Source: Pseudomonas sp. PSKL.D1
GTDB taxonomy: Bacteria > Pseudomonadota > Gammaproteobacteria > Pseudomonadales > Pseudomonadaceae
Length of the DNA stretch: 64,000 nt
Direction of reading: 5' to 3'
Assembly (NCBI RefSeq): GCF_028898945.1
Contig: NZ_CP118607.1
Location: 1,474,001 to 1,538,000, forward strand
Shown here: positions 15,975 to 17,452 of the stretch, piece after piece
Layout of the letters: every line of letters starts with the position of its first letter
Numbering within the stretch: position 1 is the stretch's first letter
Made by a program: the position numbers and the translations under genes
Notes under the pieces: generated by a model
Databases searched by the model: none
What the model was told of the DNA's origin: nothing
What the model saw: the letters and a program-made list of their open reading frames with translations, nothing else

Positions 15975-15989
15975 ACCAACGTGTAATCG

Positions 15990-16066
15990 ATGGACTCGCC
16001 CCCGCCGAGGCATCACAGTGCCACGGTGGCGTTCGAAGAAGCCAACGGCAGCGAGGGCGAGACCAT
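15990..16066 (+). promoter_or_regulatory. Left-end hairpin covering the transposase ribosome site
   Basis: The left inverted repeat ATGGACTCGCCC (15990-16001) can pair with GGGCGAGACCAT (16055-16066) at 11 of 12 positions. The second arm contains the GAGGG ribosome site and the first two bases of the start codon at 16065. A further CGC/GCG segment (16003-16005 with 16051-16053) extends the stem. Transcripts entering from outside would therefore hide the start. Pairing is visible; repression is inferred. Confidence 0.55.
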
Positions 16067-17168
16067 GAAAAAGCATAGTTCGAAGCACGATTCCCTGTCT
16101 TCCACTGATGTGGAGCTTTGCACAACCATCTGCGTAGACTTGGCCAAACAGGTCTTCCAGTTAGCAGGCGAGGATGCTACCGGTCGGGTGATCTACGAAG
16201 ATCGCATCAAATCCCGACAGGCTTTCCATGATTTCCTACTCAAGGTGCCAGTGACGGTAACTGTCTTGATGGAGTGTGGTCCGGGTGCGCAAGCCTGGGC
16301 CAGGTTGCTGCAGGCCAAGGGTAATCCGGTTCGCATTCTGCCTGCGCAACGCGTGGCCGAGCACCGCAGTGGCGCCAAGAACGACCGTAACGACGCTCAT
16401 GCCATTTTGCGCGCTGGTCGCGACAGCAGCATCGCCTCGATACCGGTCAAGAGCACCACAGCACTGACTATTCAGGCGCTGCACCGTATCCGGCGCGGCA
16501 ACATCAAGCGACATACAGCGCTGGGTAATCAGATGCGTGGCTTGCTGCTTGAGCATGGTGTATCCATGCCCCAAGGTGATACCGCGATCAGTACACATGT
16601 ACCGCGAGCTCTTGAGGATGCCTCCTTGCCCCTGCCTGATTTGTTGCGCGAGTTGCTCGATGAACTGCTAGCTGACTGGCTCTTTCTGAGTGAGCGCATT
16701 GCGACGCTAAGTGCGCGGCTCGAAGCGACAGCCCAAGAGGATAAGGTCGCACAACGGTTGATCACCATTCGTGGTGTCGGCCCCATCATCGCCACGGCGA
16801 TCGTGGCGAAAGAGACAGAACCTGCACGCTTCGCCAGTGGCCGGATGTTTTCTGCTTTCTTCGGTGTCGTGCCCGACCAGCACAGCAGCGGAAACAAAAT
16901 CAGGCTGGGCAGAATGAGCAAGCGAGGTGACGGCTACATACGCAGCTTGATGATTCAAGGCGCGCATGCTGTCTTGAGTCAGCTAAAGCCTGATTCCGAT
17001 CAGCCAGATGATCGCCGCCTCTTGCGCTGGCTATCCCGCCTTGGGCGCAAGGAGGCGGCGATCAGACTGGCTAATCGAAATCTGCGCATTATTTGGTCAC
17101 TGCTGCAAAGTGATCAGGTTTATCAACGCAAACCGAAAGGTCATGAGGAGGCTGCCATGAGCAGCTGA
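16065..17168 (+). CDS. IS110/IS1111-family transposase (DEDD recombinase)
   Basis: The 367-residue transposase has an N-terminal RuvC-like DEDD domain: Asp in ICVDLAKQVF (about residue 25), Glu in VLMECGPG (about 67) and two Asp in DRNDAHAI (about 108-111). It also has the C-terminal Tnp_20 domain, with the GVGPIIATAI helix-hairpin-helix and the conserved serine region FFGVVPDQHSSG. It recombines circular IS intermediates into target DNA with the help of an element-encoded RNA. ATG 16065 is chosen because a GAGGG site precedes it; the ATG at 15990 lies in the terminal repeat and has no ribosome site. The frame is intact, so the element may be active. Confidence 0.88.
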   Translation: MKKHSSKHDSLSSTDVELCTTICVDLAKQVFQLAGEDATGRVIYEDRIKSRQAFHDFLLKVPVTVTVLMECGPGAQAWARLLQAKGNPVRILPAQRVAEHRSGAKNDRNDAHAILRAGRDSSIASIPVKSTTALTIQALHRIRRGNIKRHTALGNQMRGLLLEHGVSMPQGDTAISTHVPRALEDASLPLPDLLRELLDELLADWLFLSERIATLSARLEATAQEDKVAQRLITIRGVGPIIATAIVAKETEPARFASGRMFSAFFGVVPDQHSSGNKIRLGRMSKRGDGYIRSLMIQGAHAVLSQLKPDSDQPDDRRLLRWLSRLGRKEAAIRLANRNLRIIWSLLQSDQVYQRKPKGHEEAAMSS

Positions 17169-17410
17169 TCAACCGAGCAATGCCACCGGGGCGCTGCGCG
17201 CCCCAACCCCTGCTAGTGAACATTGCCCCTTGGTAAGACCGTCGCAGAGAAATGCCTCCGCTCCTACAGGCCCGGCAACATTATGGCCTCAATGTAAACG
17301 GCAAACTGCGAGCTCACCACGATGTTGGCCAGAAGCGAAAAGCTTCCTCGAATAGGCCTGATACATAGATGCAACCGGGTTCCTATGTTCAAAAAGCAGC
17401 TAGACAGTGT
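17169..17410 (+). ncRNA. Candidate bridge/seek RNA region of the IS
   Basis: The 242-base non-coding right part of the IS carries a strong 7-bp hairpin GGGGCGC-TGC-GCGCCCC (17188-17204). It also has CCGCTCCTACAGG (17258-17270), which is exactly the REP core and complementary to CCTGTAGGAGCGG. A further ATACATAG (17361-17368) repeats the IS right junction (17421-17428). IS1111-group elements are known to encode a guide RNA in this position, with loops matching target and donor. RNA boundaries cannot be placed from sequence alone. Confidence 0.5.
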
Positions 17411-17425
17411 GGGCGAGTCCATACA
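17401..17425 (+). promoter_or_regulatory. Right half of a circle-junction promoter
   Basis: TAGACA at 17401-17406 is a good -35. When the right end (ending ATACA) is joined to the left end (starting TAATCG), a CATAAT -10 appears exactly 17 bases downstream. In the integrated element the -10 is broken (CATAGG). This would switch transposase transcription on only in the circular form. Confidence 0.55.
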
Positions 17426-17452
17426 TAGGAGCGGCTTCAGCCGCGATGCAGG
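17426..17452. repeat. REP half-site right of the insertion sequence
   Basis: TAGGAGCGGCTTCAGCCGCG and the following GATGCAGG form the inverted partner of the REP at 15947. The IS right end abuts its TAGGAG core directly. Confidence 0.8.

Follow-up and report, generated by a model that had tools for sequence, protein, structure and literature searches.

Four insertion sequences (ISEc11, ISKpn4, ISPst6 and ISPa11) have been described whose seekRNAs were isolated together with their transposases (PMC11187229), and ISPa11 and ISPpu10 are among the elements with a predicted bridge RNA (PMC11208160). Natural re-direction has been reported for two pairs of elements, ISEc11/ISXne4 and ISEc21/ISMch6 (PMC11187229). 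Insertion of ISPa11, ISPpu9 and ISPpu10 into REPs had been described by 2006 (PMC1525189), and for ISPpu9 production of a small RNA from the region behind the transposase gene has been reported (PMC8450116). Elements of the IS1111 type, as set out in PMC11187229, have subterminal inverted repeats that are usually 11–13 bp long, terminal extensions of 7 (or 6) bp on the left and 3 bp on the right, and a non-coding region downstream of the transposase gene.

Here we describe an element of Pseudomonas sp. PSKL.D1 that lies in a 64,000-nucleotide stretch of contig NZ_CP118607.1 (the window). ISPa11, an IS1111-family element with a REP target in P. aeruginosa and a 96-nt seekRNA, is like it in anatomy and in target, in the location of the guide in the downstream non-coding region and in having the top-strand match first (PMC11187229); the likeness is one of description and not of sequence, and the present clade differs in having 11 guide octamers with matching targets. 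ISEc11 and ISXne4, also of the IS1111 family, offer a parallel in that related transposases go with a changed guide and a matching changed target (PMC11187229), but as described there they form one pair, whereas the octamer has changed repeatedly within the single clade studied here, in some cases by one base. The bridge RNA of IS621 (IS110 group) has target-binding and donor-binding loops (PMC11208160); in our element there is support for the target loop, and a donor loop is only likely. Unlike the present element, members of the IS110 group are described as carrying the RNA mostly in the left end and as having the order of target matches reversed (PMC11208160, PMC11187229). ISPpu9 and ISPpu10 of P. 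putida KT2440, reported as IS110-type elements, likewise lie in REPs, between the ninth and tenth REP bases and with 2-bp direct repeats (PMC1525189), a comparison that again is made by description. Searches of the open-access literature brought up no title or abstract opening that names this clade. Our reading, to which we assign a probability of roughly 0.92, is that this is an IS1111-type element whose targeting of REPs is guided by an RNA encoded downstream of its transposase gene.

Element anatomy and insertion site

The element and its immediate surroundings comprise the following features.

15984–17425, + strand: complete IS1111-type element, 1442 bp, with subterminal inverted repeats, 6-bp left and 3-bp right extensions and bounds common to eight full genome copies
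15984–15989, + strand: left terminal extension TAATCG (7 bp in most relatives, e.g. TAATTGG)
15990–16001, + strand: left subterminal inverted repeat ATGGACTCGCCC
16065–17168, + strand: DEDD transposase gene, start codon inferred; the two IS110-type Pfam domains PF01548 and PF02371, as in IS1111 transposases
17411–17422, + strand: right subterminal inverted repeat GGGCGAGTCCAT
17423–17425, + strand: right terminal extension ACA
17426–17434, + strand: right target flank TAGGAGCGG, the start of a REP-like repeat, identical in 8/8 full copies

This anatomy places the element among the IS1111-type insertion sequences. The subterminal inverted repeat of 12 bp is bordered by extensions of 6 bp (left) and 3 bp (right), most relatives having 7 and 3, and the long non-coding region (17169–17410) is found downstream of the transposase gene, not upstream of it as in the IS110 group. 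The first-pass annotation had ended the element at 17422, which we correct to 17425 because IS1111 ends extend 3 bp past the subterminal repeat. Residues D25, E70, D107, D110 and S275-G276 of the transposase are invariant in nine aligned sequences and are candidate catalytic residues. The match between this protein and the IS621 and ISCro4 transposases, whose structures are known, is weak at the sequence level.

The transposase start codon (16065) lies inside an inverted near-copy of the subterminal repeat, GGCGAGACCATG, and a strong hairpin is predicted for the leader (15984–16085; z −3.43, with 0/200 shuffles folding as well). By analogy with the role proposed for the 5′ leader structure of ISPpu9, this hairpin may block translation of the transposase. 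The motif GGCGAGNCCATG is kept in 17 of the 21 elements examined, this one included.

Eight full copies and one damaged copy are present in the genome. All eight full copies occupy a single position, in one orientation, of a specific target, with TG directly to the left of the insertion point and TAGGAGCG directly to the right (TG^TAGGAGCG); in the window the right flank begins TAGGAGCGGCTTCAGCCGCG at 17426. The right flank of the damaged copy (L009, C1:644330–645688) is TTAGGAGC; this copy is 94 bp shorter between the subterminal repeats and has an extra T preceding the repeat flank. Judging from the appearance of the repeats and from the description in PMC1525189, we read the targets as REP-like. 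Sites of the form GTAGGAGCG number 977 in the genome, counting both strands, against 106 for a reversed control pattern. Insertion in the IS1111 family goes without target duplication. When the flanks are joined across the present element, a normal repeat start results; no intact empty site was found at the three orthologous IS-free loci examined, all of which are without the repeat.

The first-pass annotation drew attention to a 13-nt segment in the right end that is fully complementary to the adjacent REP sequence. The match is real, CCGCTCCTACAGG at 17258–17270 being the exact reverse complement of CCTGTAGGAGCGG. With up to two mismatches allowed, 33 occurrences of the 13-mer are found in the window where shuffles predict 2.11, an excess that reflects the abundance of the REP-like repeat there.

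Guides and targets among relatives

Relatives were collected from a same-genus genome sample (12/199 at E 1e-60; 27/398 with the right-end pattern), a same-family sample (9/397 at E 1e-90) and a named collection in which the best 80 loci were kept and 11 were used for the guide test, the remainder either having no usable right end or being relatives of 35–40% identity that were handled separately. The copies collected are a sample of those present in these genomes. A further hold-out search gained no new genomes, a plasmid search gave no match at E 1e-60, and a class-wide search with the transposase of a relative found 1/369 genomes, the element's own. Transposases in the guide test are 53–100% identical, the 20 full ones being 53–90% identical to that of our element. 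Guides were read by a pattern blind to the target and the flank was taken as the bases 3 nt past the subterminal repeat; copies from a given genome that share a 30-base flank were merged, so that some separate insertions may have been counted as one. The merged set holds 143 copies from 37 genomes, with guide and flank readable in 98 copies from 27 genomes. The other 45 copies were omitted as their guides were unreadable: 34 come from ten genomes with no readable guide at all, in most cases owing to draft contigs that end within the element, and 11 come from seven genomes in which another copy supplies one.

The octamer at 17259–17266 is exactly complementary to the first eight bases right of the insertion point in 91/98 copies, and the consensus guide and target of each genome match at 8/8 positions in 26 of the 27 genomes. 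Eleven guide octamers are found, paired with targets as follows (guide/target).

CGCTCCTA/TAGGAGCG
GGCTCCTA/TAGGAGCC
AGCTCCTA/TAGGAGCT
AGCTGCTA/TAGCAGCT
CGCTCTTA/TAAGAGCG
CCCTCCTA/TAGGAGGG
CGGTCCTA/TAGGACCG
CCATCCTA/TAGGATGG
CCACCCTA/TAGGGTGG
CCAGCCTA/TAGGCTGG, Burkholderiaceae MAG, transposase 65% identical
CCGCCCTA/TAGGGCGG, Rhodanobacter MAG, transposase 53% identical

The proposal that REP targeting is programmed by this segment would have fallen had relatives with other targets kept it, and they do not; the two distant MAG elements obey the same rule. Not one of 200,000 permutations of guides against targets reached the observed agreement, whether every genome was entered or a single one for each octamer, although kinship is ignored in such a test. 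With one genome per octamer there are 10/11 exact matches (permutation mean 1.0, maximum 8), AGCTGCTA happening to be represented by its sole misfit, G046. Kinship is corrected for in part by a tree of 21 transposases, some of its nodes weak, on which parsimony requires at least ten octamer changes. The transposases of G129 and ERMR are 96.4% identical; their octamers are alike except at the base that faces target position 4, and their targets differ likewise. A guide that is complementary to its target and changes with it is a feature of seekRNAs and bridge RNAs, and on this covariation the element is one of that kind.

Beyond the octamer, target position −1 is always G, opposite a guide C, in the 84 copies with a readable left flank (84/84). 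Position 9 agrees in only 19/98 copies and position −2 in only 15/84, so the 13-nt match resolves into nine working bases and four that most relatives drop. On this pattern the target match needs eight bases on the right and the G on the left, the adjoining base on either side being untracked; the REP match of the first-pass annotation therefore stands, with its guide shortened to 9 of the 13 bases.

Seven of the 98 copies do not match their guides: the damaged copy in our genome, the single copy in G046 (which has a broken transposase), two in G469 and one each in G139, G264 and G255. Behind the mismatching G255 copy the right end is repeated in tandem (L186:3131–3281), its last 73 bp being duplicated in a manner reminiscent of the tandem ssr9 copies of ISPpu9. 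Among the 11 guide-less copies in genomes with a guide from elsewhere, ten have the flank which that guide predicts. The eleventh, a decayed copy in G182 (L222), has the flank TAGATATC, which misfits the G182 guide; both of its ends are kept, but other repeated sequence has taken the place of much of the interior, including the RNA region. The guides of ten draft genomes are absent from the assemblies; of nine guides predicted beforehand, that of G243 alone became readable, and it agreed. The draft genome G137, its guide unread, has three right-flank octamers, TAGGAGCG (5), TAGGAGTG (4) and TAGCAGCT (1). A cruder test of wider IS1111 relatives (35–40% identity), with ends locatable at 37 of 60 loci, gave a complement of at least 7 nt in 13/37, against 7.3% of 1,260 non-cognate pairs; 16/37 had no complement at all, perhaps from misplaced ends.

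One relative points to a shift between repeat classes; P. fluorescens, for its part, has described families of intergenic repeats (PMC2718517). The octamer of G264 is one base off the commonest octamer and its target is TAAGAGCG; its seven distinct copies all occupy the same point in a longer intergenic repeat, one that is unlike a REP and has no uninterrupted palindrome next to the insertion point, and 6/7 match the guide exactly. We infer that this lineage moved to a non-REP repeat, and the number of guide steps is likewise inferred.

Predicted RNA fold and its loops

The features predicted in the right end are these.

17218–17390, + strand: predicted guide RNA (seekRNA/bridge RNA) core, its bounds predicted, containing 39 of 44 consensus pairs
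17259–17267, + strand: right target guide, consisting of CGCTCCTA and a following C and complementary to G^TAGGAGCG
17289–17299, + strand: 3′ side of the target loop by its position in the consensus fold; a possible left guide, as it includes a GTA that the left junction also has
17319–17323, + strand: possible donor guide ACGAT, in which CGAT can pair with ATCG of the left end
17361–17368, + strand: ATACATAG, copy of the right junction and possible second donor guide, in 23/25 aligned rows

A stable hairpin had been proposed for this region. A GC-rich GGGCG..CGCCC stem does exist at 17189–17203, but when folded as a single sequence the right end shows no unusual stability (z −0.42; 56/200 shuffles at least as stable), and support for structure comes instead from covariation across relatives. 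The consensus fold of 25 aligned right ends has 44 pairs, with 96.2% of cells paired. Changes affecting both partners are seen at 20 pairs, compared with 6.6 pairs in shuffles and between 1 and 9 in slid versions; covariation exceeds that of 500/500 shuffles on four of five measures, and of all slid versions, the fifth measure being reached by 2/500 shuffles. In this fold the guide makes up the 5′ strand of an internal loop that is bounded by 17253–17256/17300–17303 and 17269–17272/17285–17288. The early suggestion that the right end encodes a guide RNA is thus supported, in that the guide covaries with its target and sits within a covarying RNA fold. Four Rfam matches were obtained, none at gathering score.

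By analogy with the studied members of the family, the downstream region would be made into a folded guide RNA that acts with the DEDD transposase. Its loop bases CGCUCCUA-C would direct the element to one position of the REP-like repeats by pairing with top-strand G^TAGGAGCG, a role that natural covariation supports. For a second match like that of seekRNAs and bridge RNAs, to the bottom strand and 3′ of the first, GTA is in the right place but invariant: GTAA on the 3′ side of the target loop is the same in 25/25 rows and no programming is seen there, nor did the 84 readable left flanks reveal any on the left target side beyond the G.

The second loop is likely to be a donor loop that recognises the element's own ends. 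Agreement between the possible donor guide and the left end is 22/22 units at position 5, 19/22 at position 6 and 12/22 at position 7; 2/50,000 permutations did as well at position 5 and 0/200,000 at positions 5–7 together, but by the transposase tree position 5 has changed only about three times. The left ends of G022 and G204, which were read later, scored 5/5 and 3/5 (for G204, TAATCGG predicted and TAATCAA found), with position 5 agreeing in both. On the right, ATACATAG does repeat the junction at 17421–17428, as the first-pass annotation had noticed, and fits a donor guide, but its near invariance makes for a weak test of that role. Right end and junction copy change in step in the Burkholderiaceae element (ATA end, ATATAAAG) and not in the Rhodanobacter element (ACG end, ATACATAA). 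With support so uneven, the donor loop is likely rather than proven; it would probably, though on weak support, recognise the joined ends, CGAT pairing with the left end and AUACAUA matching the right.

Bases 17219–17225 can pair either with 17320–17326, on the donor-guide side, or with 17383–17390 at the 3′ end. The former helix is supported too and excludes one helix of the consensus fold; as both alternatives covary, a switch of the RNA between them is possible. When 17380–17425 is joined to 15984–15989, a promoter-like TAGACA-N17-CATAAT is formed, and such hexamers, with 9 to 11 of 12 consensus bases (a count made without a shuffle control), occur in 21/21 elements with both ends, ours included. 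A promoter formed at the circle junction is a feature of the IS1111 family, and in a circular form of the present element the joined ends are predicted to supply one for transposase and RNA.

Alternative explanations and consequences

That the transposase itself recognises REP palindromes, the 13-nt match being a chance REP fragment in non-coding DNA, would fit the many REP-like targets and a window full of the same 13-mer, and an uninterrupted palindrome does follow the insertion point in 56/98 copies against a background of about 11%. Such a palindrome is lacking, however, in 36 of the 91 exactly matching copies (many of the 36 having imperfect ones), the G264 copies match an altered guide at a repeat without a palindrome, and transposases 96.4% identical have different targets that follow the guide, all of which makes this explanation very improbable. 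We give equally little credence to the idea that the region encodes only a regulatory sRNA like Ssr9, which in ISPpu9 is made downstream of the transposase gene and is about 180 nt long (PMC8450116), and that guide and target match by shared ancestry: several related genomes do have guides and targets in common, but on the tree the octamer changed at least ten times with targets changed to match, and the matching ends after eight bases on the right. A guide of the full 13 nt, or one reading both target sides like two-sided seekRNAs, is unlikely, if less remote than these; the guide bases CA of our element also fit TG at −2,−1 of all nine copies in its genome, and it is across the relatives that agreement at −2 and at position 9 breaks down.

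We therefore return to RNA-guided targeting by the downstream region, under which the present element is, on comparative evidence, a further member of the seekRNA/bridge-RNA elements and one with a clear natural reprogramming series. This offers an explanation for the REP location of these elements and makes target choice readable from sequence. We think it rather probable that target choice is almost wholly one-sided, with a 9-nt right guide and the left target side free except for the G. If so, single guide substitutions would re-aim the element, and its lineages would therefore track the dominant host repeat and could leap to another repeat family, as in G264. The 11 natural guide octamers, two of them on 96%-identical transposases, would provide a ready test set for the bases checked by a compact RNA-guided recombinase and for the ease with which it may be re-aimed.
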